Shown here: positions 6,904-57,474 of the stretch, one piece after another
How positions within the stretch are numbered: the stretch's first letter is position 1
Layout: every line of letters starts with the position of its first letter
From: Owenia fusiformis
Lineage: Eukaryota > Annelida > Polychaeta > Sabellida > Oweniidae
DNA: 64,000 bases
Direction of reading: 5' to 3'
Assembly: GCA_903813345.2 (NCBI GenBank)
Contig: CAIIXF020000004.1
Coordinates: forward strand, 14,639,196-14,703,195
The notes under the pieces: generated by a model
Databases searched by the model: none
Told to the model about the DNA's origin: nothing
The model's input: only the letters and a program-made list of their open reading frames with translations
Position numbers and translations under genes: made by a program

Positions 6904-8001
6904 TGTAAAGTGATGTAACATTGTGACTATCAATCTGATGGTCATGAAATAAAGTGAGCTGGTAGGAAATTGAATGGTGTACAAATGTGCAAAATATCAG
7001 GGAGTAATTTCTCAAAATGACAAATATATGAGGAAAATGGTGTAAGGGTTTCCATTTTTTGACCACCCTGTAAAAGTATATAAAATGAGCACAGCATAGA
7101 CAACAATAGAAACTTGTTTTAAACAAGAGATGAAGTGAACAGAATAAAGCACATATAAAGGACTAGAAAACAACATGATTAACTATTGGACATAATTCAG
7201 ATTTAAAAAAAATATGAAAATGACCATGTTCACGATGCCCATGTCAAGCAGCGTGCCTACTAGGCACGCAGTTTGAAACTCTGGCAAACTGCGCGCATAT
7301 TTCAAAATGTGAGACGGGGAGGACACGACTCCCAAAAAGAGCCAAAATACGAAAAATACAAGGTTAGTCTCGTTCTAAAGATAGTACCATTCTGTGAAGA
7401 TGAACTTAATTTACTCAAAGTACTCAATGTTTTTCCCGATGTAAACCTAGTTATCTCAATATAAGGGTCTTAAGTAACTTCTGTGTTCAAAATTTACAGT
7501 GTAAAGTTATATCTATGTCTTTTTATCGTCATTTGCCGTTTATTCAGCCATTGTGTCTGTGTATGCTAGAATATATAGGATCACTCCATCTGATTAAATC
7601 AGCAAGGTTTGTGTTCAAAACGATAATACGCCATAAACGTGATTTAAACATTTTTCTTGCGCGCCTATATTCACATGTATTTCCCAAACTGCGTGCCTAA
7701 TATTTCCAAACTGCTTGCCTATCCAAGCTTGTTTTGTATTATTAGAAAACATAAGCGCCATACAAGGCACATATGTGTCTAATAGTAGAACCCCATAATT
7801 GAAACACTATGAGAGTCCATCCACCAAGATGGTGATCTGAAAATAAAAGTTTTTTTCGTTCCCAACTTAATTGTCACTTCTATTATACATTTTGACTTTC
7901 AATATGAAAATCTCATAAAATGTGACGATAAAGCAAAATTTCCAAAGCTACATGAAAAACACCTACACGTGCCTCTGTAGAAATTCCAATGATATATTTT
8001 T

Positions 8002-9045
8002 GTTAGTTTGGTTGAACCACTTTTAATGTATGCCTCTGAGATATGGTATAGTAAGAAGCATGTAAAAGCTATAGAAGCAATACACTTATCATTCCTTAAA
8101 TGTTTGCTTGGTGTGAAAAAATCAACAGCTACACCGGCTGTTTATGGGGAGCTAGGACGTTATCCTTTAAAAATTCGTTTCAACATTAAGCTGATTAAAT
8201 ATTGGCTGCGTTTAATGAAATTACCTGAAGAAAATATGCTCAATAAATCATATTTGTATGACCTTGAAATGAATGGTTTAGGTTACTCTGGCACTTGGTC
8301 CAGTAAAGTTATTGACATATTAAAACAATGTGATTTATTCTCTCATTGGTTGACTCAAAATGTTGAAGATGATTATATATTTATTCAAATGATCACAAAG
8401 AAATTAAAAAGTAACTATGCACTTCAATGGAAACAGGATATTCTTACTTTTCCTGTTCTTAGAACTTATATAAAATTCAAAAATACTTTCACCAAAGAAT
8501 TATATTTAAACATTCAAAATAAAAAGTATAGACATGCATTAACTAGGCCCAGGATGAGTTCACATAAATTACAGATAGAAGTTGGGCGGTACTCAAAACC
8601 AAAGCCAAAACCCACAAGTGAAAGGTTGTGTAGTGAATGTGGGGTAATTGAGGATGAGCTTCACTTTATCACAAGCTGTACAAAGAACTTAAAACACAGA
8701 GAGCTTTTGTTTGAAACTTTAGAATCTGATCTGAAACAGTGCAAAGATCCAGATAAACTGTTTGAAACTATTATGTCTAGTAAAAGCTCTCATGTTAACT
8801 TATATTTAGCCAAATTTGTATATCACTCTTTTAAAAATTTGGAAAATGTTTAATATTATGTAAACTTTTTTTTTTAAACACATGTATTATGGATACACCA
8901 CACTGATATCATACCCTGACATGTGAAACTGATGTAAAGTAGTTTTGTAGTATGTAGTTGTAGTTTGTAGTTTTTTTGTACACTGTAGTGACTGATATGT
9001 CATTTACATGACATGGTTATTGAGTCAATAAAAGATATATATATA
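8002..9045 (+). mobile_element. 5'-truncated non-LTR retrotransposon (LINE)
   Basis: The open frame 8002-8853 is the C-terminal part of a LINE ORF2. It starts within the thumb region (LVEPLLMYASEIWYSKK), then gives GVKKSTATPAVYGELGRYPL, and ends with a zinc-knuckle-like CSECGVIEDELHFITSC (C-x2-C-x7-H-x4-C). After TAA at 8851-8853 comes a ~190-bp 3' UTR with AATAAA and an (AT)n tail near 9030-9045, a usual LINE 3' end. No start codon, endonuclease or catalytic palm is left. It sits in element 2, so it is younger than that element. The clade (CR1/L2/I-like) is not resolved by eye. Confidence 0.85.
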
Positions 9046-11690: not shown

Positions 11691-11730
11691 TTATTTCACA
11701 ACTTATCATACAACGGTACGTACCTAAAAC

Positions 11731-14700
11731 ATGCAGCGTGGACTCATATACGGGTTGGCAATTCTTTTCCTATGCTGTTTCTCAGATTCTCGAGCTGAGA
11801 AGGTGGAAGAAGCAATACAACTCTTGATTGAAAAACTAAAAATGGATCTGAAAGAAGATTCCTCTAACATTTATAAAGACGAAATATCCAATCTAAGGGA
11901 TGATGTCTCTAATCTTCGAGGTGATGTGTCGAATCTACGAGATGATATGTCGAATCTACGAGATGATATGTCGAATCTTCGAGATGGTGGTCAATCGGAT
12001 GTCAGAGACAATGTTTTTGAAGTGATGAAGCAGTTGAAGGAACGCACATATTTCAACAACACTAAAAATGATACCGACCCTAAGGATGATTTTCCAGTTT
12101 TCTCAGACGGTGAGGCAAAGCTACTTATTTATCTTTGGTCACGTGATTTATATTGATGCTTAAAGGGACTTGGTAAAATTACTACGTTGACCAACAATTA
12201 AAGTCTTTACATTTTCGTATTAGAAGGGTTTATTCGTTTTGAAGGGGTGTACGTATTGAACATTTCGTGCAATACAAAATAATTCCCGGTTTTCCTAAAT
12301 GCTTGCTACTAGACTAATCTTGATTGACCAGTTGGTCTGTTGGCAGAATTGTTGACTCTGAAGCGGCAGGTCGCAGGTTCGATTCCTGAAGGAATCATTC
12401 TGTTTTTACTTTTTGGTTGTAGGCTCGCTTATTAGAATACTATTAGTGGATAATCCTAGTATGTTACAATAACATGATGATCTACAAAATTAGAAGGTTT
12501 CTTTCCAAAATATTATTCAAAATTTGAATTTTTTAGAAATGTGTCTGTTTGATGTTTTAAAGTCAATATTAACTAATAGAAGTCTACAATATTAGAAATT
12601 TTCAAAGTGGACTTTTTGATAAAGGGACACTTTAGTGAAGCCATATTTACTGTGGTTTATATTGGCAGCCAATGGGGATTTTCCAAAATTCAAACGCTAA
12701 TATCTTTAGAACTGGGCAAAAGAAAAAAACAATTCTTCTTATTTTGAAGATCATCTTGTTATTATAACATACTAGGAATATGGGCTTTATTACTCTAGAA
12801 CTGTTATGCAGGGGGTCTTTTAAAGATTGATAATTAGATATCAAAAATAAAATTCTCTATATTTCCCAGATAATGCCCCTTGGACTTTGTTTGGACCCCT
12901 GTTTGGACTTTTGGACCGGCCCTTAAGAGGGGGGTTCGAGTGTCTCATATTTAAGAACATTTGTTGAAATCAATAATGCTGTTGACACCTCACCAAAACT
13001 GAAAAGGTGTGTACAAACAGTGGGCGGATAGATACCAGGGTGTATTAATGTAGTATTATTAATGCAGAAGGATATTATTTTGAGTATCTTTGTTGAGTTT
13101 TATCTCAAATAGGATTGCGCAGTTGGATTTAGTTTTTCAGATTTTCAATATGAGTTATGACGTCAATATGGGCTCAAATCCTGGACCAAGTGCAACTACC
13201 ATGGGGTAGGAAACGTGTGATTACAGAAAGTTCTACCAATTAATCATTCTGAAAATTCCCTGCTGTATAGCCATATATGAATTATGTAAACTGTGTAAAA
13301 ATTTCAAGTGATTTCCTCTTCTTAAGAAAAAGATACAGCATTTTTATCAGAACTTCTGATGCATTGTACATTTACATGTACCCAGTAAGTCGTGCATGTA
13401 ATCATGTACGTATCTTGGTGTCTAATCATCCACGACATGTTGATATGTATATGTATTGGTCTGATGAATCATGGCGCAGTATACGTTTTCAATATTTATC
13501 CAAAATATATACTCAAAACTACATCAATACATGAAAATATACCTTATGAGTAACATCTTGAATACGTATTTGCATTATAAATTATGTAACTTAGCTTTAG
13601 ACTAATGCCTGGGTCACATTTGCTCCGATTCATCGGCCGGCGCCCGGCTGATTGAGTATTCTCGTCAAAACTGTATACAATTTTGAATAAAATATTCAAT
13701 CGGGCGGGCGCCGGCCGATGAATCGGAGTAAATGTGACCCAGGCATAAGCAAACATATAGATTATTGTTTAGCATGTGTTTCGACCGTCTTCTCACACCT
13801 ATCTGAGCCAAACTTTGGTTGAGCCTATTTGTAGTCCCCGAGTACGGACATCCGTGCACTTTATATAGATTCGCAAACACTTAACCTGTTTTCTAAGATT
13901 CAAAGATGAATAACATTTATACGAATTTATTTGTATTTCCAGGTTGTAATAAGTCAGTAACAATGCTTCTAACGATTCAGGATCAATTAAAGACCTTGCG
14001 ACAAAATTATTCGAAAGATGGTAGTTCTCGATCTGAAAGTCATCCAATTGATTTTGGAGGTAAGATTGTTAGGAAGAATTTATATTTCTTATCATACATT
14101 TACAGGATTCGTTGACATTCTTACGATTTGCCGTTTTGCTACATACGAAATTTGTCGGATGTCAAAATGGTTTCCTTTGACGCATCTTCATGTAATTAAT
14201 GAAGTTTGAAACAATGGGCCAATTTACAATTATTGATATTTCAAAAATACAAAATTCGAAAATTAAGATATTTATATTGCAATGATTTTTTCTTGAATTA
14301 CGAAGGAAACACATTGTATTTTATGAATTAGTGAGCGGCATAATTGGAACTACATTGGCATTTAGCAATTTTCAAAGAAACGAAATATTAACATATTTTC
14401 GTTGATTGTTCAATAAGTCTGGAAAGATTTTCAAATAAGATATTATTTATCACGCTTGTGAGTGTCAAACAAACAATAAACATGTTTCCTCTAATAGAAG
14501 TATTGAAGTGTAAAAAATGAATATGTATATCGAGTCAACGCTATCGTTTGAAATTATAAGCCTCAAATTATTTTGAACTCGTACATACGAAATTTGTCGG
14601 ACGTCAAAATGGTTTCCTGTGACGCATCTTCATGTAATTAATGAAGTTTGAAGCAAATATACGGGCCAATTTACAATTATTGATATTTCAAAAGTGATAA

Positions 14701-17700: not shown

Positions 17701-20700
17701 ATTTTTTCAAGTAGACTAAATGAAGTGGGAAAACCGACTGCGTTCGTATCGACTGTACGACAATATATACAGGATCATGTTCCCCCTGGGACTATTAGAC
17801 ATTAGTCAGTTACTGAACATGTCCCTCCATTAATTCACCCGTCCCCTTCTTGGCGGTACCAGGCTAGGCGTATACATGTACTGATAACATGCATACCAGC
17901 ATACAAATAATTCAACAAAAGGGGTAGGCTGCATGATACTTCAAGACTTGAGTGACTTCGTTAAGATAAAGTAGCAAATGTAGGCTAATGACGTACTCTT
18001 TATCGTTATTTACGGTAGTCTAGTGTAAAACCAAACTTTCCATTAATTGAACAAATATTGTGCTTTTGTGTTATTCTATCAACAAGCTAAATGATTTTAA
18101 TTTCTTGTCTCGGGCAATAATAACACATGTATTGAGCTGGAATTGATAAGTAATATACATTGACCAAAAAGGTTTTTACAACATTATATTCTGCATGACA
18201 ATACTCGTATGCGAAATCATGGGCTTTCAATAGACAAACTTTGACCGATGGTAACCAGGTAACATAATGTAAAACCTAGTTCCTCATTGAAATATCCATG
18301 GTGTATGGCTTATAGAAGAAAATCAAAACGAACCTGCCATTTCAGTTTAGTTCAGTTTACCGTCACTACTCATACTAATACCAACTGTAGTCTATGGCGG
18401 ATCCGGGGGGGGGGGCCCATGGGGCCCGCCCCTCCCCCTAAGGTTGGCCCAGAAAAAAAGTTGGGCCCAAAAAAAAGCCAAAGGCCCCAAAAAGTGGGCC
18501 TTTTGGTCATTATTAAGGCCTTATTTTTAAATTTTAGGCCAAATTTTTAAGAAAATGGGCCTCAAATTTTCAAAATTTTTTGTGTGATCCATTGCCAGTG
18601 TGATCTGTAGTATTCTTAACTACTGTACTATCCCTTGGAATGCACAGCCTGTGGGGGAACGAGTGCGGTTAATGTTTTCTTTAACCCTGACATGTACGCA
18701 CCAACTACTTAATATTTACACAGAACAATTAACCACCAGTATCATGGGAAGGCATCATCTGTGGTCACGTGGTTACATAACAAGACAAAGCCCAGTGCGT
18801 ATGACAAAACACAGTCTCTCACAAATAATCTAATTAATTAAGGAAATGTGTTCGAAGTTTAAAAAAGGGAGAATAAGAAGGTGAATTCTGTCATAGGCAA
18901 TAATTTAGTAAACCGTATACACTTATATTATTTTGATAATGCACTGAACAAATAAAAATGAACATTGCCTTTAACTGCATGTCTTCAATATTCAGGTTGT
19001 TACATCATTGTATACAATATTGTTGCTTCACGATAAAAGAAACCCTTTTTATCCATCATTCGCTTACAATTTAGAATGATAATATTCTCTGGTGCTATTC
19101 GAATCGGGGGGGGGGGGTGCTTTTTGATAGTTTTGTTTAGAAAATCGTGCGAAAAGTGCTCAGAGTGGTGAAAACCTGCGGGAATTTGAAATAATTTCTG
19201 GCCAGGAAGGGGGAAACTACCGAACCTCCAGCTTCCCCTGGTTACGGAACTGCTTATTGGTAATTTGTATTGCCCATTATAAATCTCCATTCAGTTAGAG
19301 TCATCAATGGTGAAATCTGTGTTGGAGTTAGCTTCTTATCAACCTCAGTTAGAGTCATTCTAAGTGAAGCCGTTTTCTTTCAATTTCTCTAATATCGCGG
19401 GTGCTTGAGCCTTTATTTGTGGTTGTTTACAATTATATCTTTATTAGTTTGCATGGCGAAACTTTTGGGATCAAGATTCAACTTGGTTTGGCTGTAATTG
19501 GAGATTTATCGAAAACGAACGAATTTTGTCCACCATCTTGAATGAAGCTAACTGCAGTTAGAGTCATCCAGTTGTGGAACAGTGAACATGTGCGGTGCTT
19601 TTCATTTCTAGTATAAGATCGTTTAAAGGGGCAACAAGGCCTTATAGAGAGAAAATTCGAAAAAATTAACTTTCTGAGCTATCAGAGCAACATTTGTCTT
19701 AACATCTTCTTTGAAATCTGTTTTTTCATAAAATGTATGAATAAACTATCAATTTCAGCATAAAGAAGTGCGAATTCAGTTCAAAGCTTCTGTAAAGGGA
19801 GTCCCACCAGATTTTTAAGATCCACCGCGTTTCAAGAGGAATATCAGCTGTTCATCCAGGGGGTTTCTTTGTAGATAATAAAAATATATATGCTAGTCTT
19901 GATGATTTTGACACCGGTCCACGATCATAGAATGGCCCATCTGCAATAATTGTTGCACCTTTAAATGTATCGAAAAGGGTAGGCGCCCAGAGGTAGGGTA
20001 ATTTTAAACTATTTTCCAGAACCATGTAACAATGCCACTTTGCCTAAATCAGAAGACTGCATTGGAAAATCTGATGATGTTCATATCATTATCACCAAAA
20101 GCGGAAACCCATTCCTTGCAAGATGCGAAGCTGGGTGGCTTATCATTGCACATCGTTACAATGGAAGTGTAGATTTCAATCTAGATTGGGACGACTACAA
20201 ACATGGCTTTGGCAACATCCGAAAAGAACACTTAATTGGAATGGAAAACATTTTCTCTGTGCTGCAAAACAAGAAATACAAAGCCAGGTTTGACCTCATC
20301 TCATGGGAGGATGAGAAAAGATACGCAGAATATCAGACCTTTGACATTAATGATGAGCAAGACAAATACAGATTGAACATCGGTGGCTACAGCGGTACAG
20401 CAGGTGATTCTATGAAATCTTCAAACCATATGCGATTTACCACCGGAGATTCTGACAATGACAATAATAATAGTGGTAACTGTGCCTTGTCTTACGGTGG
20501 ACCTTTTTGGTATGACAATTGTAACGGTGTTCAGGGGTCTATCTTTGGCGTGTACTCGAGAAGTCCAAGATGTTCGAAGCCATGGGGTTGTTTAACTTGG
20601 GATGCTTGGCCTGAAAAACGTCCTGGAGTTGATCACAATTACCTTTACTCTTTCAAAGAGGTTATGATCAAAATTCGACCTATTGAAATAGAACCTTTAA

Positions 20701-20705
20701 AATGA
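11731..20705 (+). CDS. Secreted fibrinogen-related protein (coiled coil + fibrinogen C-terminal domain), 4 exons
   Basis: Exons 11731-12109, 13943-14059, 16316-16435 and 20020-20705 join in frame (379+117+120+686 nt, 433 aa plus stop). All three introns are phase 1 with GT/AG borders. Residues 1-22 are a signal peptide (MQRGLIYGLAILFLCCFSDS). Residues 52-85 are five near-perfect heptads (SNLRDDV/M) of a coiled coil, and NNT and NDT sequons follow. Exons 2 and 3 are alike: each starts G-x-C and adds about 39 residues of amphipathic helix. The last exon is a fibrinogen domain. Such proteins (ficolin, angiopoietin and tenascin kin) are extracellular multimers that bind sugars or acetylated ligands; an immune lectin role is inference. 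The signal peptide and ATG context decide the start. Introns carry a SINE, two MITEs and element 3. Confidence 0.9.
12326..12397 (+). repeat. tRNA-derived SINE or tRNA pseudogene
   Basis: It has an A-box-like TGGTCTGTTGG (12333-12343) and a perfect B box GGTTCGATTCC (12376-12386) at tRNA-like spacing. The acceptor stem does not pair, so it is not a working tRNA. It lies in intron 1 of the fibrinogen-related gene. Confidence 0.55.
13606..13745. mobile_element. 140-bp palindromic MITE, copy 1
   Basis: Terminal inverted repeats of about 45 bp begin TGCCTGGGTCACATTTGCTC and end in a GGCCGGCGCCCG core. TAA flanks both ends (13603-13605, 13746-13748). The TWA duplication fits PIF/Harbinger-like elements. 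A second copy is at 61623-61762. Confidence 0.8.
13943..14059 (+). CDS. Exon 2 of the fibrinogen-related gene (coiled-coil linker)
   Basis: Acceptor TATTTCCAG and donor GAG/GTAAGA bound 117 nt (39 codons), phase 1 at both ends. It encodes GCNKSVTMLLTIQDQLKTLR and a Ser-rich tail ending HPIDFG. The same G-x-C start and length as exon 3 suggest exon duplication. Skipping it would keep the frame. Confidence 0.8.
14141..14247 (+). repeat. Direct repeat pair in intron 2, copy 1
   Basis: ACATACGAAATTTGTCGGAT and the following ~100 bp recur at 14583-14693 with about 10 differences, 440 bp downstream in the same orientation. This is a local duplication of unknown origin. Confidence 0.7.
14583..14693 (+). 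repeat. Direct repeat pair in intron 2, copy 2
   Basis: Partner of 14141-14247; it contains the same CATCTTCATGTAATTAATGA word and ends GATATTTCAAAA. Confidence 0.7.
15079..15680. mobile_element. 602-bp MITE with TTAA target site
   Basis: Terminal inverted repeats of about 200 bp or more begin AGGAATATTCCTTGCCA. TTAA lies directly outside both ends (15075-15078, 15681-15684). The TTAA duplication fits piggyBac or Kolobok-type elements. It lies in intron 2 of the fibrinogen-related gene. Confidence 0.85.
16316..16435 (+). CDS. Exon 3 of the fibrinogen-related gene (coiled-coil linker)
   Basis: Acceptor TTTATTAG and donor AAG/GTACCT bound 120 nt (40 codons), phase 1 at both ends. It encodes GNCSKIFGTDSLKEDIEIVK, then a helix ending in a cysteine (VDTCKAGPDEKITE). 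Its cysteines may link subunits. It lies just upstream of transposon element 3. Confidence 0.8.
16667..19584. mobile_element. Transib/RAG-type DNA transposon, non-autonomous (element 3)
   Basis: The ends CACTGTTCCCCAACTGG and (reverse complement) CACTGTTCCACAACTGG start terminal inverted repeats of about 255 bp. The two arms are close to identical over ATGACTCTAACTGCAGTTAG and beyond. The target duplication AACAT is exact (16662-16666, 19585-19589). The word CTAACTGCAGTTAG is palindromic and a variant recurs at the inner end of each arm. The interior holds poly-G/poly-C tracts (18404-18440, 19106-19118) but no protein I recognise. It is inserted in intron 3 of the fibrinogen-related gene. Confidence 0.72.
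20020..20705 (+). CDS. Exon 4: fibrinogen C-terminal domain
   Basis: Acceptor ATTTTCCAG precedes 686 nt ending in TGA at 20703-20705. Family motifs appear in order: EDC, ARCEAGWLIIAHRYNGSVDF (the GGWTVIQRR-DGSVDF core), DWDDYKHGFGN, YRLNIGGYSGTAGDSM, the calcium-loop-like TTGDSDND, NCALSYGGPFWYDNC, WDAW and the end YSFKEVMIKIRP. The N-terminal part is shorter than usual between EDC and the core, with no obvious G-x-Y-x-I strand. The two C-terminal cysteines of NCA..WYDNC match the conserved disulphide. Two extra cysteines (RCSKPWGC) lie beyond it. Confidence 0.93.
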
Positions 20706-24730: not shown

Positions 24731-26770
24731 GATTTTTTTTTGTAGTATTTATTTTATTTCAGTTTAAAACTTCTTACATTTTACATTTTAAAGCAACCTC
24801 CAAACATTCTTCCTTTCACACCATACATTCCTACCCATCCATACCCTCTCATCTTTCATACATCCCAGTCAGACACATGCATACTGTAAATGTCACATAA
24901 ATATAGAGGAAAAATCATGCCATAAAATAAAGCATAGAACGCTATTTAAAGTTAGAAATCATAATTATCTAATGTGGAGCCCTCGGAAAGATACGCCCTA
25001 TACCCCAAGTATGATATAGGCTCTCTTCTAAAAATCTTCGTATGCACATAGTACTTGTAAATTAAAATAGCAAAATTGAATTCTTTGAAAAGTAAGTTCC
25101 CAAAATATCCCACTATTACGTGCTGTTCCTTTAATTCTATACCCTTTGGCTCCCAATGCATTTTCATGTTTTTAATGAGAGGTTGTACATTTTTGCAAAT
25201 CCAGAACCGGTGCTGAACAGTTTCTTCCTCCCCACAAAAGTCACACGAGCCATTTTTCCTTATCTTTACTCTTTTCAGATACAGGTTTGTCGCGTAAATA
25301 TTATTAATGATTTTATACTGCAGCTCGCGAAAAAAATTGTTCTTTGTTACTCTGTAAGCCATCGAACATATGTCATTTACTGAGACATTGAATTGCGAGG
25401 CGCTTTGTTGCACACTTTTGGATAAAGTAAAATTATTTTCATTTATACATGACTGAATAAGCTTTGTGGTCAGCTGTGAAATATCGAAAATCTTACCTGC
25501 AATATGGATAGATTCCAATCTGGGCTCATAGTTTGATACACTTATCATTGTGCGGTCGCTTTTTAATAAGGAGATCCACTTCGATGGAATGGCTGATATA
25601 ATTCCCATATAGTCTAGAAAGTTAATATTTATCGTGAATTTCAGATTGAAATCCCGATGGCTTAAGAATTTGCCCTCTTCGTCTAAAAGATCTCGTATTT
25701 GGACTATTTGTTTTTCAAATAGATCCTTCCTGAAAATTTGCTTACCCTCCCTTAAAAAATGTCTCTCACAACTGCCGGCGGACCCGTACGCCCGATTTCA
25801 AACTTTTAAAAACTTTACTTTTTCGCGCCATTCGTATTGTCCAATTAGATTGCCCGATTTATTCAGTGCCTAACATGACTTCCTGTTGACCTAGAATGGC
25901 GATATTTCGAAAAATAATTCTCAATTCAACAATTTAAACAGTGTTTTAGTCGTTTTTAGTGAACGAATCGTACAAAATGGTGGACAAATACGATCACAAC
26001 GAAAATGTGGAGGAAATGAATTACGATTTCGAGCTCTTTAGGCTCTTGGAAGCCGATAACGGTCATCGAAAATAGAAACTAGAATATTTTCTGAATTGAA
26101 AAATTGAACATTCGATCGCTGCAAATTCAGATTTGGATTCTGACCAGACGAAGAGGCGGAGCGGCGGATTCCGGAGGAGTATTCATGGTATATTTATGCC
26201 CAGTCGTGTTAATGTACGAAAAAATTCATGAGAACATTTTTTTCATGAGCCAGGCCACTGTATCTTCCCTTTGTGAAAATTTTATCCAGATTCATTCAGT
26301 AGTTATTGAGATATTAATTATTATATCATTTTTTGCACTCTTTGAAAAATAAGCCAGTTGCGTGGGATATATTTGCTGAAATAAGGCAGCATGGTAAAGG
26401 TATATTCTTGTTATTCCACAAAAATTCGTTCTTAACTTCAGCACTATTCCGTGGGTCATCACATTCATTGACTGAAGAATAATACCGAAGCATGTCCTTA
26501 TAAAACTCCGGAATGGGATATTTGAAATACCGGACATCATAGCGACATTGCAAGATAAAATTTAAGCCTCCGAACTGTGCAAAGTAAATTGCAGGGATAA
26601 CCTTCCAATGACTTTTGGATATGTCAAAGAAGCGTTTTATCCACATAATTTTTAAAGCTTTTTCCATTGAAGTCAAATTTAACATTCGAATTCCGCCGTC
26701 TTTAAAATCACCAGATATGGTATTACGTTTAATCTTTTCACTGGCTCCTTTCCTTTTCTTTGGAAAGGAT
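24731..26770 (-). mobile_element. Tx1/L1-like LINE fragment, interrupted
   Basis: On the minus strand 26770-26400 reads KRNTISGDFKDGGIRM and later ALKIMWIKRFF, NFILQCRYDV and EFLWNNKNI. These are the block after the reverse transcriptase palm of Tx1-type L1 elements. The same reading resumes at about 25769 with LREGKQIFRKDLFEKQIVQI, then NFLDYMGIISAIPSKW and a zinc-knuckle CDFCGEEETVQHRFWIC (C-x2-C-x7-H-x4-C), and stops at 24952. A short 3' UTR and an A-tract (T9 on the plus strand, ~24731) follow. About 630 bp of unrelated DNA (25770-26399) separates the halves. The catalytic part and ORF1 are missing. Confidence 0.8.
25977..26187 (+). CDS. Possible first exons of a small unknown gene inside the LINE interruption
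   Basis: ATG at 25977 opens MVDKYDHNENVEEMNYDFEL then FRLLEADN. A weak donor G/GTCATC at 26061 can join an acceptor AAATTCAG (26130) in frame to DLDSDQTKRRSGGFRRSIH, ending at a donor CATG/GTATAT (26187). Without splicing the frame stops at 26073. A CCAAT word (25841) lies upstream. The acidic start followed by a basic Arg-rich patch resembles the N-termini of some DNA-transposon proteins, but I recognise no family, and no later exon was found. Low confidence. Confidence 0.22.
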
Positions 26771-31111: not shown

Positions 31112-32158
31112 CTATAATGTTAGCATTGCTTTTGAGATGACGCCATCTTCCAAGTCTTTCAGGGCTGTTTTGTAATCCTCTAGAGGATACAATTTCACGC
31201 CTAACCTTTTCAAATCAAGTTTCCCATCAATCGCCATGTTCTTGACCAACGATAAAGCATCCATGTGTTTATTGCACTCTCCAGATGAACTCAAAATCTT
31301 CACCTCTTTATTGAAAAAGTCACACGGGGATATCGAGGATTTTGTTCCCGGAGGAAAAAGTCCAAACATCAAATAGGTGGCGCTTTTACGCAAGAGTGGG
31401 AAGTAGTCCTCAAATGCTTCAGGTGATCCAGTGCAGTCGAAGATCAGATCATAACCGACGAGTGACGTTTCGAGGCCTTTGAACTTTTCAATTACTTCGC
31501 TTGGTTTCATAACTTGGAGCCCACTAAGCTGGAGATTTTTAGCGATTTCTCGTCGACATTCTATAGGCTCACATATTGTGATGTCACGAAATCCCTTATA
31601 GTGTAACATAGACGCTTTTAATAGCCCGATGATACCGCTGCCAGCAATCAAAATGGACGCAGAATCGGCGAGAGGGCTGTAGTTGGAGAAGCTGTGAACG
31701 ACACACGACAATGGTTCTGTCAAAATAGATGTTTCAAAGTCGATCTCATCGGATAACTTGAACAATTGAGAGCTTTGTACAAGGCAATAATCTGCCCAAG
31801 CGCCATCTCTATGGAAACCGTTGTAATAAGAAACACCGCCTTTGACACATAAATTTGCCTTTCCTAGATGACAGAATCGACAATGATGACAATGGCACGA
31901 CGCAGCTGCCGAGACGCGGTCTCCGACTTTAACATTCGTCACATCAGATCCAATCTCTACGACAGTTCCAGAAAACTCATGACCGAGGACAACATTATCT
32001 TTAATGATAAATGTATTTTTGATGAAGTGTATATCAGAGCCACAGATTCCGGCGCACGGTATCTTCAAGAGAACATCATTTGGTTTGACTATTCTCGGGA
32101 TTTCTATGCGAACGAGCTCAATTTTCTTCTGTGACTGTGTCAGTTTGATCGCTCTCAT
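31112..32158 (-). CDS. Zinc-dependent medium-chain dehydrogenase (sorbitol/threonine dehydrogenase-like)
   Basis: One exon encodes 348 aa, the usual family length. I start at the ATG at 32158 (MRAIKLTQSQ), because an acceptor-like polypyrimidine-TTTTAG at 32169-32180 lies just before it, implying a 5' UTR intron; frame upstream of it is not coding. Catalytic zinc ligands are Cys39 (AGICGSDIH), His60-Glu61 (GHEFSG) and Glu149 (TEPLS). The structural zinc cysteines are 90, 93, 96 and 104 (CHHCRFCHLGKANLC). The nucleotide fold has GSGIIG at 173-178, and an acidic residue (ICEP) about 20 residues later suggests NAD(H). Such enzymes oxidise polyols, amino-alcohols or similar; the substrate is unknown. 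A coding region without introns is notable in an animal gene of this family. Confidence 0.92.
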   Translation of the reverse strand: MRAIKLTQSQKKIELVRIEIPRIVKPNDVLLKIPCAGICGSDIHFIKNTFIIKDNVVLGHEFSGTVVEIGSDVTNVKVGDRVSAAASCHCHHCRFCHLGKANLCVKGGVSYYNGFHRDGAWADYCLVQSSQLFKLSDEIDFETSILTEPLSCVVHSFSNYSPLADSASILIAGSGIIGLLKASMLHYKGFRDITICEPIECRREIAKNLQLSGLQVMKPSEVIEKFKGLETSLVGYDLIFDCTGSPEAFEDYFPLLRKSATYLMFGLFPPGTKSSISPCDFFNKEVKILSSSGECNKHMDALSLVKNMAIDGKLDLKRLGVKLYPLEDYKTALKDLEDGVISKAMLTL

Positions 32159-32168
32159 AAGGTTAGAC

Positions 32169-32185
32169 CTAAAATTGAAAAAGAA
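32169..32185 (-). promoter_or_regulatory. Probable splice acceptor before the dehydrogenase start
   Basis: Read on the minus strand, CTTTTTCAATTTTAG precedes GTCTAACCTT and then ATG. It decides the start codon and predicts a non-coding first exon at higher coordinates. Confidence 0.6.
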
Positions 32186-32216
32186 TGACCATAAGTATTT
32201 TAGAAATATGCCCAAC

Positions 32217-32652
32217 CAGGGGCGTCAGAAGGATTTGCCAAGGGAGGGGGCGACTTTTGGATATGGGGGGCATGCCCCCAGAAAAATTTTCAAATTTAGA
32301 CCTTCTCTTGTGCATTCTGAACATATCTCAGCACAACGTTCCCAAAAACAAAAACAAGAAAAAGTGTTTTTAGGAAACTAGCTTGACTTTGACTCTAAAA
32401 AACTTTGAATTTCACTAAAATATACATTTTGCACTTATTCTTCAAAGTATTTACATGGGTTTCTGAGAAACTATGGTATAGAATTAAGTATAATATGAGA
32501 AATGAGATCTTCTATGCTTGATGTAAACTAGATTACGACAAAGTATCATTTTGACTTTAATTAGCTTTAAAGAGCTTTCAATTCGAGGCTCGGTTTCTGG
32601 GAAAGGGGGGGGGGCGGTCGCCCCCAACGCCCTCCCCCTTCTGACGCCAATG
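32217..32652. mobile_element. MITE with GGCGTCAGAAGG ends and 5-bp duplication
   Basis: The left end CAGGGGCGTCAGAAGG and right end CCTTCTGACGCCAATG are inverted, each next to a G-rich or C-rich tract. The 5-bp flank CCAAC is on both sides (32212-32216, 32653-32657). It is related in style to 58816-59004 and 48704-48857 (GGCGTAG/CAGGATT ends). It lies directly upstream of the dehydrogenase, over its presumed 5' UTR intron. Confidence 0.65.
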
Positions 32653-45449: not shown

Positions 45450-45546
45450 GAACTGAGCGAGTCGGATCACACCATATACTTGTAGAGCTGCAGATACGAG
45501 GGAATCGCTGCAAAGTTGATAGGAAACGTGAGATTTGATTGATAAG

Positions 45547-48500
45547 ATGGCTGCACCGATTGATCTCAGTGGAAAATGGAAAGTTGGCAAAAGCGAAAAT
45601 CTCGACGCATTCTTAACCGCTCTCGGTAAGTCATAAAATTGTCGATGACCTGGTTTTGAAGAACCGGGCTATAATTGTATGTGTGTTCACTATAAACATG
45701 GACCGCTGTGTTATAAACTGTAAAGTTCAGAACAAGGCCAAGGCTATTTTGTTTTTCTACTGAAATAAGTAATCAACTGATCGCGGTACTAGTGCAGTTA
45801 ATGTAATTACTAATAATTCATTCAGAGACAAGAATTATCATCGTGGTAAGCCACGCCCTCTCCATCTTTATCCTTCTGGAGAGCGTCTGCGATGCAACAG
45901 AGAGAGATGCTATGAGTATCAGAATGAATAATTATGGTTTTCTGTAAAGTCCATTTCACTTTTCCCTCCGTCTGTCAAATCAATAAATAGGCAATCAAAG
46001 ATAAAACAGCTTTAATGATGATTTTCTTAGACAAAAATCAAAGTTTGCTACTATAAACTCGGAGAACATAAAAAATAATGCATCATGTACTTCAATAATT
46101 TCAACCTTGTTAATAGAATATGTTTGCAACAAGCTCTTAAAAGGGGGATTGCTTGATATTTCATTGCTAATGAAACAGAATACGTTTTACTCCATTTGAT
46201 ATGTATCATCCAACACCCTGGTGAAATTAACGTTGTTGATATGTTGTTGATGCATAATTTGTTGAAAGATTCGCCAGAAAGTGCCCTTGCGGTTATCTTT
46301 AAATGACAGACGACGAACACATCAGACAAATGTACTATGCTTGATATTTCATTGCTCATGAAACAGAATACGTTTTACTCCATATGATTTGTATCCTCCA
46401 ACACAGTGGTTGAATTAACGTTGTTGATATGTTGTTGATGCATAATTTGTTGAAAGATTCGCCAGAAAGTGCCCTTAGGGGTTATCTTTTAAATGACAGA
46501 CGACGAACACATCAGACAAATGTACTATGCTTGATATTTCATTGCTCATGAAACAGAATACGTTTGACTCCATTTGATATGTATCCTCCAACACCCTGAT
46601 GAAATTAACGTTGTTGATATGTTGTTGATGCATGATTTGTCGAAAGATTCGCCAGAAAGTGCCCTTGGGGTTATCTTTTAAATGACAGACGACGAAAACA
46701 TCAGATGAAATATTGTTATGTTTGTGATGAATTTAGGTTTTGCTGTACAATATTTTGTATCCTCCAAACATTAAGATTTCAGCCATGTACCAATACGATT
46801 TCAAATAATTACTTTGAGAAATGAAACTAATCAAATCTAGTATTTAAAATAAATGATTGTTATATAAATTCTCAATTATATCTAGTTTCTTATAGTAAAT
46901 TGAATATGTTAAGCATGTGTGGGGGCTACTAATCATATGAACATAATAAAAAGTATTCCTTTTTTATGAGTAAGAACTATCAAACAATCCTCTTTTGAGA
47001 GCAGAATACCAGCATCAAAGCTATTTTCAAGAATTAATAAGCAATATTTTCAGTATAGATCGCATGGTCATGATAGCCACCAGTTATGTTGATATTAAAA
47101 TAGCACCCATTAAATGTCGCTGATATTGACATACACTGTACATGACGCAGGCTTTAGGGGAATAATAGAATTTGAATATTTTTGAAAATATCAATTATCG
47201 TAAATTTGCCGAGACTCCTTTTTGCATGAATAACGTATAACACCACTAATAGGGGATAGAAGCATAGATTGTTGGTCTACACGGCCAACAGTACTGTACG
47301 TTACGGTTTTGGAAATGGTACTGTATTGTACCGTGAAATATGGTACCATACGGTACCGTAGACTAAAACGGTACCGTACCTGAACACTGTGCGGTACTAT
47401 GCTCCAACGGTACCTTACGATACCATACTCTTAATGTACCGTACGGTACCGTGATTTTAGAGTGTGGATTGGGGGTGTAACTCGGTATTTATAGACAAGT
47501 TTCCAATTAATTCTGACCCTTTTTATTGGTGCACCAATTAAACTAGCGTACATCGTCTAGTTTTATAATGTCATATATTGCAATCTTTGTAAATAAACAT
47601 AAGGAGGCTTTTTATAAATTGTGAATATCAACAATGAATAAACACAAGGAGCACACGCGTCTCGAACTCTCAACCTCGTGGTTACGGCTCCCAATCGCCC
47701 AGCTCGAACGTGCCGGCGCTCAAGCCCTCTTGGCTGTCATGGCTGTAACTGTACTATGATATCGTAATTCATCGGTGGCAGAATTTACTTGATCATATTT
47801 CCAGAATATTTACTAACCCTCAATCGATAATATAGATATGTTTGTGCACTCTTTGTCCAAAACTGAAAATTGTAGACCAGGAATGGAATGCCTTTCTTAT
47901 TTTCCTGCAAATAACATAGTACTTCAATTAAGAAGCCATTGGCATTTCTCAACATACAGAGTTACCTTAATACCAATGCTTAATATCAATAGGCAACACT
48001 TAATATTCCAGGGGTAAATGTGGCAATGAGAAAGATCGCAACAAATGCTAGTATCACCCAGGAGATCACACAGGATGGAAACGACATGACAGTCGTCATG
48101 AAACTCCCTCTAAAGTAATCAATCCTTCAGTATCCAAATACTTCGTTCAGTGTGTTTATTCTTCCCCTCTGCACTCGTAATATATGTTCCGGGTTTTCAA
48201 AACATTATTAAATGATGGTACTTCTATCTCAGTGACGTTGTCTTTAAAAATTCATATTTGAGTTAATCACTTACTATTTGACAAGATTTTTAGTGATATG
48301 AAGCGATGAAAGTTGAAACATAGGTAATTTCCCCGGGATCTTCATTTATCTGCAGATGTAACGGTAGGCCAAACAATTAAACTGAACGAAGTGGACACTT
48401 TTAACATCATGTACTTTATGTTACCCGCTTTCTTCAACAGGGTGGTTCTTGGTGGTCTTTACTAATAATTCAAAAGATTTCAAATGTGAGAAGTAACGTT

Positions 48501-50793
48501 GTCGAGACAGTGGATTATATTATGTTGCCGATCAAAACCACCCTTGTATGTCTGTGACATAAAGATACTACAGTTTTTTTGTCACGGATCATGTCAGTAT
48601 CTTTATTTTATAGAGTTCGAGACATATAAATTACATAAACTGTATCAATTTATATCTCTCTGCTTTCTCTTGGATCTAGACTATATTTACTGTAAAATGC
48701 AGTGCTGGGGGCGTAGTCAGGATTGCAAATAAGGCGGCGTTAACTAAAATTTTGAGACACAAGAATATAGTGCACTAACATTTCAGTCGAAAGAGGTCTA
48801 AATGAAATATTTTTCTAGAAATTATTTTCCTCGCCTTGTACATACCTAGCTACGCCAATGATAAAAAATATAGTCTATAATCACATAAATGGATCTTAGT
48901 CTTTATGTATATAGTGCATGCTCTGCAGTGTATATAGCCTGCTAGGCCCTTTGGGCTACTGTATTTCTCTAGTTCTTCATTCTAGTCGTGTTTCATATTT
49001 TGTAATACTAGATATGGCTCCTTAAATACATGTTGTTATTGTCTCCATATCTTCAGGCTTCGGATTTGCTAAAAGAAAAATAGCAAGTGCCGCTCCGTTA
49101 ACAGTCGTTATCACACAAGATGGCGACAATGTAACAGTCTCGAACCAGTCACCGATAAAGTAGGTATGCAGTTATCAGATTATACCATTCTCCAAACGCA
49201 ATGGGGTTCACTTTTTGATACCTTTGCGGACGACGAATTGATTTCTCCTTTGATTCTACATTGTCTCCTTTAAAAACGTTTTAATGTTTTCAAATACCAT
49301 TCGTACATACTTTTAACATCCTGTGTAGGCCTATTCTATGTGTGTTTTATATTGTGGTGTTAAACTTTGCAATTATGTAGTATTTATAGACGTGCTTCTG
49401 TAACTTTGAGTGAATTCTGAGTTTGTCCTTTTATTTGGACACCAACTTTTGCTACACATGGCCCTTTTAACACCACACTAATTTTCACATCGAGTCAACA
49501 CATCGGCAACGCATGCCCATGTGCTTCAAATATTTATCAATATACGATTTCTGGACAAGTCTGATGAAGTCTTATTTTAAAAACCCAAGTCAAAATGTAT
49601 TAGCCAAACAAATCGTTTTCGATTATGTCACGAGAGAAACACGTTCTTCAAAATTTGTATTTATATTTATATGCAGCCACTTTCATTGGAAAAACTGCCA
49701 TCGGATCTGTTTGATTTCCTGACTGCTCGTCTCTTCCCCTTCTTCCAAAATACTAAATTCATGTTCATTTTTTAGGACCAAGACTACTAAATTCACAGTT
49801 GGTTCCGGTGAGTTTGAGGACGAAACTCCAGACGGTAGAAAGATAATGGTACGTACATGTACATGTATCTCATTTTAGCATCGTGTAGACCCGAGTATTT
49901 GTTACGAATGCGAATGAGTCGGAGAGATCCCTCTCGTCCTACCAATGAGATTATTTTTACCATTTTGAGCTAAATGATTCAGTTTTCAAAAAGCTAACAA
50001 AGTTAAGATGATTCTTAATTTGAAAAGAATTCTGAAGATCCAAGTTGTCTGCATTGACATAATTCTGGACTGCCATTTTCAGGCTAATGCGTATTGGGAA
50101 GGTTCTAGTTTGGTCGTAGACGCCAAGCCTAAAGACGCCAAGGAGAAGGGCCTTAAGGTAGTGCGAACAATAGAAGGCGATGAGATGCACCAGGTACGAG
50201 AACACTGCCCTTTCCAAAAGTTTGGCATCCTAAGTCCCCACTGAATAACATGTTTATATTTGAAAGTATATTTAGTCCCTATTGCATAAGGGCGGATTTT
50301 GACATCTGGTCAAAAGAGGAAGGGAGTATTGCCAAACCTTTAGATTGGTGTGTATGTTAGATACTATATTTTAGATATGAATAATACAGTTAATAATACA
50401 GATCTTCGACTTGAAAAGTCTGCCTTATGATTTGTGAAATGTCTAAAATAACCCTTGGAATGAATAAGATTGTATATCAGGTCACCTTTCTAGTCTACCC
50501 AAGCAAAATGATATAACATCTATTATTTGACATTGTGGAAGTGAGAAGAGCATTAATCGTCTGATGGGAGATCAATATAATTTTTTTAAGGAAATCCATA
50601 TTTTGAAGAATCCCGATCCAATCCACCTTTTACATGAATCCAATCCACTCGATCCAATCCACCTTTTAATCTTTACCTTATAAGCAGTACTAATAGATAA
50701 ATCTATTATGCAATGTAAATTAATGTAATATCTTACTTTCAGGCAATGACATGCGACGGTGTGACCGCTATACGTCACTTCAGCAGATGTTAA
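45547..50793 (+). CDS. Intracellular fatty acid-binding protein (FABP/CRABP family), 5 exons with duplicated exon 2
   Basis: Exons 45547-45625, then either 48012-48114 (2a) or 49057-49159 (2b), 49776-49848, 50083-50193 and 50743-50793 give 417 nt, 138 aa plus stop, the usual family length. It starts MAAPIDLSGKWKVGKSENLD (canonical G-x-W-K-x3-SEN-x-D, with Leu for the usual Phe). It ends GVTAIRHFSRC, keeping the ligand Arg of the R-x-Y pair but with Phe for Tyr. The protein is a cytosolic beta-barrel carrier of fatty acids or retinoids. Exons 2 and 3 together (176 nt) correspond to the single ~173-nt exon 2 of vertebrate FABPs, so an extra intron splits it and its first half is duplicated. All borders are GT/AG. 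Intron 1 holds a tandem array. Confidence 0.92.
46152..46735 (+). repeat. 188-190-bp tandem repeat, three units, in FABP intron 1
   Basis: CTTGATATTTCATTGCT recurs at 46152, 46340 and 46530. Units share CGTTGTTGATATGTTGTTGA and AGATTCGCCAGAAAGTGCCC with few changes. The open frame on the minus strand here is a by-product. Confidence 0.88.
47280..47465. repeat. GGTACCGT palindromic repeat cluster
   Basis: At least eight variants of GGTACCGTA/ACGGTACC occur in about 185 bp, on both strands by symmetry. It may be the core of a MITE; ends were not defined. Confidence 0.6.
47640..47755 (-). repeat. tRNA-derived SINE fragment
   Basis: On the minus strand TGGGCGATTGG (A-box-like) is followed by GAGAGTTCGAGAC (B-box-like) at tRNA spacing. 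It is GC-rich against its surroundings. It lies in FABP intron 1. Confidence 0.45.
48012..48114 (+). CDS. FABP alternative exon 2a
   Basis: Acceptor AATATTCCAG and donor AA/GTAATC bound 103 nt, entered in phase 1 and left in phase 2. It encodes GVNVAMRKIATNASITQEIT then QDGNDMTVVMKLPLK. This covers the end of the helical lid and strands B-C of the barrel. It is 103 nt like exon 2b and splices to the same partners. Confidence 0.85.
48704..48857. mobile_element. Short MITE between the two alternative FABP exons
   Basis: GGGGGCGTAGTCAGGATTG at the left and CCTAGCTACGCC at the right are imperfectly inverted. The GGCGTAG-x-CAGGATT end relates it to 58816-59004. Confidence 0.45.
49057..49159 (+). 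CDS. FABP alternative exon 2b
   Basis: Acceptor TATCTTCAG and donor AA/GTAGGT bound 103 nt with the same phases as exon 2a. It encodes GFGFAKRKIASAAPLTVVIT then QDGDNVTVSNQSPIK, closer to the family consensus (G-x-G-F-A-x-R-K). Joining 2a to 2b shifts the frame to a stop within a few codons (reading LRIC then TAA), so one transcript can use only one of them. Confidence 0.87.
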
Positions 50794-51122: not shown

Positions 51123-51128
51123 AATAAA
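51123..51128 (+). terminator. Polyadenylation signal of the FABP gene
   Basis: AATAAA lies 330 bp after the TAA at 50791-50793, and a GT-rich stretch is absent nearby. It is the first canonical signal downstream. Confidence 0.5.
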
Positions 51129-56836: not shown

Positions 56837-57331
56837 CTATAGGGAAAACTGAGCCACTTTGTTTGTTTGCCCACCCTGGATAGCAATGTCAGATGTCTCC
56901 TTTTGGTAGGTTTGTGTAAGCACATTGGCAGCGTCTGTTAGGTTCTTTAGCACTGAAAATAGTCCTTGAATGTGATATCTGAAAGCGGCGGCTGATTTCT
57001 TGGATTGTTCATCGACATGCACGGTTGAATTGTCCTCTGATTCTACACTGTCTGGTCCCATGATAAGTTCAGATTTTACCCCATTTAACATAGTATAGAA
57101 GCCATACATATCTGCGTTTTGGACGGGAATTAAGGCCTTATCAGTCTGTGTGTTGTTGGTCAGTGGCAGATGCATGTCTTTCAGTTTGCATGGCACCATG
57201 ACCGTGTCGTCCATTACATTCACTGCTTCCACAAAATCGTTCATAACAGCTTGGAGCGATTGTTTTGATGTTTCATCGCGTTCCAATCGTTTGTTTAGTG
57301 TATCATCCATGATTTCATCCAATAACTTCAT
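56837..57331 (-). CDS. MID1IP1/THRSP (Spot14) family lipogenic regulator
   Basis: One exon, 164 aa from the ATG at 57331 (MKLLDEIMDDTLNK); the frame upstream has only a GTG. Family blocks appear in order: SLQAVMNDFVEAVNVMDDTV-MVP (the [21 protein letters not shown] block), NADMYGFYTMLNGVKSEL (the [20 protein letters not shown] block) and FRYHIQGLFSVLKNLTDAAN-VLTQTYQKE (the HYHLRGLHTVLSKLT block). The middle linker is acidic and variable, as in the family. Vertebrate members bind acetyl-CoA carboxylase, promote its polymerisation and so raise fatty acid synthesis; MID1IP1 also contacts the MID1 ubiquitin ligase. That this protein does the same is inference. A single coding exon matches the vertebrate genes. 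A possible acceptor (ACTCTAG) just before the ATG would fit a 5' UTR intron. Confidence 0.9.
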   Translation of the reverse strand: MKLLDEIMDDTLNKRLERDETSKQSLQAVMNDFVEAVNVMDDTVMVPCKLKDMHLPLTNNTQTDKALIPVQNADMYGFYTMLNGVKSELIMGPDSVESEDNSTVHVDEQSKKSAAAFRYHIQGLFSVLKNLTDAANVLTQTYQKETSDIAIQGGQTNKVAQFSL

Positions 57332-57474
57332 TCTAGAGTATGTATGCACCTAAATGTCTGTTATTGCCTGTGTTTTGTATACTGTTAGTATAGTACTTAG
57401 AACTGCTGTGGCACCTATATCCAATATCACTATAGAAAATCAATTGATGTAAGTTGGGTTTGTATGGGATTTCG

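Follow-up and report, generated by a model that had tools for sequence, protein, structure and literature searches.

Among genes for intracellular lipid-binding proteins, the closest described system is CgiLBP5 of the Pacific oyster, whose third exon is reported, based on reconstructed transcripts, to undergo typical mutually exclusive splicing; its authors trace this exon either to a local duplication or to the remains of a duplicated gene (PMC5399370). Splicing of fatty acid-binding protein (FABP) genes by exon skipping, by intron retention, and by spliced leader (SL) trans-splicing has been described across one trematode, one nematode, and four arthropods (PMC3796463), and splice variants are annotated in 33 of 142 FABP genes from 18 organisms (PMC7193176). 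Here, we analyze a 64-kb stretch of DNA from the annelid Owenia fusiformis (the window). Positions 45547-50793 on its forward (+) strand read as an entire gene of five exons that encodes an intracellular lipid-binding protein of the FABP/cellular retinol-binding protein (CRBP) family, with two alternative second exons, 2a and 2b. In the explanation that we consider quite probable, this is one gene in which the first half of exon 2 was tandemly duplicated, and the two copies, long diverged under selection, are spliced singly to yield two 138-residue carriers.

Like CgiLBP5, the Owenia gene encodes an intracellular lipid-binding protein and has one of its internal exons in duplicate. In the oyster gene, it is the third exon that is affected, and the substitutions named in the available text are surface changes at residues 99, 114, and 121 (PMC5399370); in contrast, the duplicated unit predicted from the Owenia DNA corresponds to the leading half of canonical exon 2, which encodes residues 27-61 on the portal side of the protein and is set off by an extra intron. 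Other alternatively spliced FABP genes resemble the Owenia gene in that several mRNAs arise from one gene; however, the available portions of the two surveys name skipping, retention, and SL trans-splicing and do not report a duplicated exon (PMC3796463, PMC7193176). A duplicated FABP exon 2 (the portal-coding half) was not found in the open-licence literature to the extent that its text was available, and the main text of a paper on tandem duplicated exon substitution (PMC9741552) has 0 occurrences of “fatty acid” and of “lipid-binding.” Because CgiLBP5 has already been described as mutually exclusive, exons of this kind are known in the lipid-binding protein family, and the Owenia gene differs in which exon is involved, in where this exon lies relative to the portal, and in having an extra intron. 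The original prediction for this locus held that animal FABP genes diversify by whole-gene duplication, a view that is too narrow given the mutually exclusive splicing described for CgiLBP5 (PMC5399370) and the spliced FABP genes (PMC3796463, PMC7193176). If both Owenia exons are used, the two cases, located at different exons, would suggest that lipid carriers gained exon-swap diversity more than once, and exon swapping would represent an alternative to tandem gene families for these carriers.

The canonical FABP gene has four exons; exon 2 measures 173 bp in almost all genes surveyed and 176 bp in FABP11, and exon 3 measures 102 bp in most genes and 90 to 108 bp in others (PMC7193176). Five-exon FABP genes are listed in placozoans, molluscs, platyhelminths, and nematodes (PMC3796463). 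In the Owenia gene, either copy of exon 2 (103 nt) and exon 3 (73 nt) together measure 176 nt, so these exons are read as a split canonical exon 2, the duplicated unit being its first half; the split would be due to a single additional intron, which interrupts codon 61 in phase 2. The next exon, at 111 nt, is above the third-exon lengths in the survey.

Reading frame, homology, and age of exons 2a and 2b

Exons 2a and 2b are both 103 nt long, with entry phase 1 and exit phase 2. We translated the spliced sequences and found that inclusion of 2a alone or of 2b alone gives an open reading frame of 138 amino acids (isoforms A and B, respectively), and that the two isoforms are identical outside residues 28-60. 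When both exons are included, a stop occurs as the fifth codon past the junction codon, within 2b; when neither is included, a stop occurs in exon 3. These translations confirm the phase logic of the original prediction, which had reasoned that single inclusion leaves the frame intact and that double inclusion and double skipping both break it. In both faulty products, further exon junctions follow the premature stop, and mRNAs with both exons or with neither would therefore be expected to decay. The locus shows two features expected of mutually exclusive tandem duplicated exons, namely homologous internal exons with compatible length and phases, for which double inclusion and double skipping are unproductive by frame. 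All junctions of the gene are GT-AG, and the splice coordinates predicted earlier (45625; 48012-48114; 49057-49159; 49776) proved correct.

Equal length and an open frame are not decisive alone, because among the 13 AG-103 nt-GT stretches between exons 1 and 3, five are open in the right phase, including 2a and 2b. We therefore used a profile built from four solved FABPs/CRBPs, with no sequence from the window, and slid it over all six frames of the window. Exon 2b (score 55.25) and exon 2a (53.25) ranked first and second among 127,792 stretches, the third-ranking stretch scoring 16.75 against a mean of -39.0 and a standard deviation of 10.5; there is mild circularity in these ranks, as the profile homologues were originally found by searches with the full isoforms. 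In 100,000 residue shuffles of each exon, none reached the exon's own profile score, and the similarity of 2a to 2b, which share 17 of 35 residues and 55 of 103 nucleotides, was likewise not attained in 100,000 shuffles. The proposal that 2a and 2b are paralogous is supported by this agreement and by their ranks. A chance AG-open frame-GT stretch was rejected, as only 2a and 2b among such stretches match the family profile, and an assembly duplicate or haplotype copy was rejected because the copies are only 55/103 nt identical.

The pattern of substitutions between the exons points to an old duplication. Codon positions 1, 2, and 3 agree at 21, 25, and 11 of 35 codons, respectively, where 8.9 agreements are expected by composition at position 3; the difference between positions 1+2 and position 3 is significant (Fisher p = 0.0016). 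The proportion of synonymous differences (pS) is 0.74, near saturation, and that of nonsynonymous differences (pN) is 0.37. Because residues were kept (17/35) although third positions are near chance, the duplication is judged to be old, and selection has held both exons since. In simulations of neutral drift (5,000 runs per setting; survival defined as an intact frame, intact AG/GT, and a profile score ≥50), 2a survived with a probability of 0.033 at 0.1 substitutions per site and of 0.0022 at 0.2, and the values for 2b were 0.059 and 0.0044, from which we conclude that purifying selection constrained both copies until recently. Constraint on both copies argues for translation of both, and we infer that both exons are used in mRNA.

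A different origin for the second copy would be the remnant of a whole tandem FABP gene, or insertion or conversion from another FABP locus, after which splicing would look alike; we regard this as rather unlikely. The paralogues are just 17/35 identical, and the compared flanks outside the exons show no match longer than 16 nt (plus strand; best E 0.14), as such an origin would allow; the same choice is left undecided by the oyster authors for CgiLBP5 (PMC5399370). However, tblastn searches showed no third exon copy, second FABP gene, or other FABP exon in the window among the best 25 matches per isoform, where the best matches outside the gene had E values of 0.46 (isoform A) and 6.2 (isoform B). 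In both copies, moreover, the exon stops in codon 61, at the extra phase-2 splice site. Finally, the BLOSUM62 sum between A and B is 77, compared with 40 to 63 between either and the four solved homologues, although these homologues belong to distant animals, and the pair CRBP1 and CRBP4, with 18/35 identities, is on par with A and B. Local duplication of the half-exon is our preferred origin.

The swapped segment and the protein

Both isoforms matched Pfam family PF14651 (lipocalin/cytosolic fatty-acid binding protein family) above its cut-off of 25.4 bits, with 36.6 bits for A and 30.1 bits for B. This was the sole Pfam family at E ≤ 0.001 for either isoform; PF00061, which we take to be the main lipocalin/FABP model, was not reached. 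Distinct solved sequences in the Protein Data Bank (PDB) numbered 242 for A and 238 for B at E ≤ 0.001, and the best 60 matches comprised cellular retinol- and retinoic acid-binding proteins, FABPs, ReP1-NCXSQ, and mite Der f 13. The earlier identification of an FABP gene is well founded on these Pfam scores and the hundreds of solved matches. Arg113 and Arg133-x-Phe135 occupy the place expected for the P2 motif of FABPs, Arg...Arg-x-Tyr (PMC3796463), with Phe replacing Tyr, and Pro79-Asp80 is present. Proteins of this family form a barrel of ten strands with two helices and bind a lipid. The FABP family is regarded as an animal one (PMC3796463). Searches for relatives of isoform A in bacterial/archaeal and viral collections, sensitive to close relatives only, returned none.

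Between the 2a and 2b segments, 18 of 35 residues differ. Based on alignment to CRBP1, the swapped segment spans what we take to be helix II, strands B and C, and the gatekeeper turn at Phe57 (element boundaries assumed), and the prediction that the exon lies on the portal side is supported. We presume that CRBP1 Phe57 is equivalent to Phe57 of myelin P2; the aligned position is L60 in A and I60 in B. At the positions aligned to CRBP1 Lys40 and Thr53, which presumably line the cavity, A has Gln43 and Met56, and B has Val43 and Asn56. The portal consists of helix II and the CD and EF loops (PMC5399370), and Phe57 is the gatekeeper in myelin P2 (PMC6020228). Residue 32 in helix II is Met in A and Lys in B, and the segment charge is +1 in A and +2 in B; positive portal charge is believed to steer the collisional complex with membranes (PMC3610644). 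The swap may tune ligand entry, the cavity, and membrane contact. Shared exons encode the presumed carboxylate-binding arginines, which would stay constant.

The best solved match differed between isoforms: for A it was CRBP1 (72.8 bits, compared with 65.3 for the FABP Sm14, a 7.5-bit lead), and for B it was Sm14 (70.9 bits, compared with 65.5 for CRBP1, a 5.4-bit lead). This change is suggestive at most. Exon choice would switch ligand class if A were retinol-binding-like and B carried fatty acids and had a lid that is more basic and collides with membranes; we consider this highly improbable, as CRBP IV scored 68.2 bits for B, and ReP1-NCXSQ is in the top four matches of both isoforms.

The F57A mutant of myelin P2 is one of those used to study how the FABP portal works (PMC6020228). 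If both Owenia exons are used, the gene would provide a natural swap experiment, in which the gatekeeper turn, helix II, and strands B-C are exchanged within an otherwise identical protein and the exchange is maintained by selection.

Splice sites and exclusion of the second exon

We compared the splice sites of the two exons with those of the rest of the gene. Predicted U1 pairing of the donors was -9.3 kcal/mol for exon 1, -3.2 for 2a, -7.2 for 2b, -6.3 for exon 3, and -7.1 for exon 4. The 17-nt tract preceding the acceptor holds 9 pyrimidines for 2a, 13 for 2b, and 11 to 12 for exons 3 to 5. Exon 2b, with strong sites, is probably the default exon, and 2a would be included under a tissue- or stage-specific activator or upon repression of 2b. 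In human U2AF1, however, the duplicated exon with less favorable sites is used more than the better-sited one (PMC5224494), so unequal sites do not prove which exon is the default and which is regulated.

The weak sites of 2a also bear on whether it is a relic, that is, an old duplicate whose sites have decayed and which is hardly or never spliced, so that the gene would effectively yield isoform B only. We consider this very unlikely. Its donor and its pyrimidine tract are the poorest of the gene, as a relic would have. However, weak sites are equally expected of a regulated exon, and in U2AF1 it is the exon with the less favored sites that is more used (PMC5224494). The profile score of 2a is near that of 2b, its frame is open and its AG/GT intact, and drift past ~0.1-0.2 substitutions per site would usually destroy these features. 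Isoform A also fits PF14651 better than isoform B, and branch-point-like motifs (yUnAy) occur 28 and 41 nt before 2a.

Exclusion of one exon by the other was considered next to the 942-nt intron that separates them. The usual minimum intron length is well under 942 nt, and steric exclusion by a short intron is unlikely at this length. RNA-pairing (docking-selector) elements were sought as whole-region duplexes in 10 pairs of five intron regions, with 40 Markov-resampled controls per pair; none was found (z -0.89 to 0.66), although intron 1 was represented by 500 nt at each end only and a short element could escape this test. Because no RNA-pairing signal was detected and the intron is probably too long for a steric block, reading frame and mRNA decay are the sole exclusion device identifiable, and the likeliest. 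Exclusivity would be enforced mainly by the frame, with mRNAs that contain both exons or neither carrying premature stops and being degraded.

This arrangement could also mean that the exons are not strictly exclusive, and that abundant transcripts with both exons or neither constitute unproductive splicing that lowers gene output. The frame makes both transcript types candidates for decay, and the spacing leaves room for them, as a steric block is unlikely and a pairing signal was not detected. We find this reading quite improbable, and nothing specific points to a regulatory role; such transcripts fit single splicing of 2a and 2b equally well as a side product.

Several observations weigh against two singly spliced exons that both yield carriers. 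Within the gene, 23% of 299 GT dinucleotides pair with U1 at least as well as the 2a donor, and 52% of 253 AG dinucleotides have a tract at least as pyrimidine-rich as that of 2a; with sites this weak, 2a could be used rarely. The asymmetry between the exons is also incomplete, since no yUnAy motif was found 60 to 15 nt before 2b, and the failure to detect pairing elements counts on the same side. In addition, lipid binding by the product is not certain, because the conserved gatekeeper Phe (Leu in A, Ile in B) and the P2-motif Tyr (Phe) are replaced in both isoforms.

Gene features and the rest of the window

The features of the gene are listed in the table below. A stop in frame with the ATG lies at 45529, 18 nt upstream of it.

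Features of the predicted lipid-binding protein gene in the window
Feature	Coordinates	Strand	Description
Exon 1, coding part	45547..45625	+	79 nt, ATG start; residues 1-26 and base 1 of codon 27; donor gtaagt
Exon 2a	48012..48114	+	103 nt; residues 27-61 GVNVAMRKIATNASITQEITQDGNDMTVVMKLPLK (end codons partly encoded by adjoining exons); donor and pyrimidine tract weak
Exon 2b	49057..49159	+	103 nt; residues 27-61 GFGFAKRKIASAAPLTVVITQDGDNVTVSNQSPIK; donor and pyrimidine tract stronger than those of 2a
Exon 3	49776..49848	+	73 nt; reads as second half of canonical FABP exon 2; phase 0 end
Exon 4	50083..50193	+	111 nt; counterpart of canonical FABP exon 3; carries Arg113
Exon 5	50743..50793	+	51 nt including stop; counterpart of canonical FABP exon 4; carries Arg133-x-Phe135
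AATAAA, possible poly(A) signal	51123..51128	+	330 nt past the end of the stop codon

Intron 1 contains two repeats. Positions 46150-46705 form a tandem array with a 190-nt unit, 2.9 copies, and 93% matches. At 47291-47452, ~560 nt upstream of exon 2a, there are five 17-nt copies (≥74% alike) of GTACCATACGGTACCGT, which is partly palindromic.

Scans of the whole window gave no Rfam families at gathering scores and no tRNA genes. Elsewhere in the window, two long frames, at 7993-8853 (+) and 24952-25797 (-), had no Pfam match at E ≤ 0.001 and by eye resemble the tails of retrotransposon proteins. A frame at 19983-20705 (+) encodes a fibrinogen C-terminal domain (PF00147, E 2e-44), and repeated LRDD units occur in a frame at 11728-12156 that, judged by eye, may be part of a similar secreted protein. 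At 56837-57349 (-), ~6 kb from the FABP gene, a single frame encodes a Spot 14 family protein (PF07084, E 2.3e-25); this family is linked to lipid synthesis. An intronless frame of 370 amino acids at 31112-32224 (-) resembles zinc-dependent alcohol dehydrogenases (PF08240 whole, PF00107 nearly whole), and it may be a retrocopy, a gene of foreign origin, or an animal gene that lacks introns.

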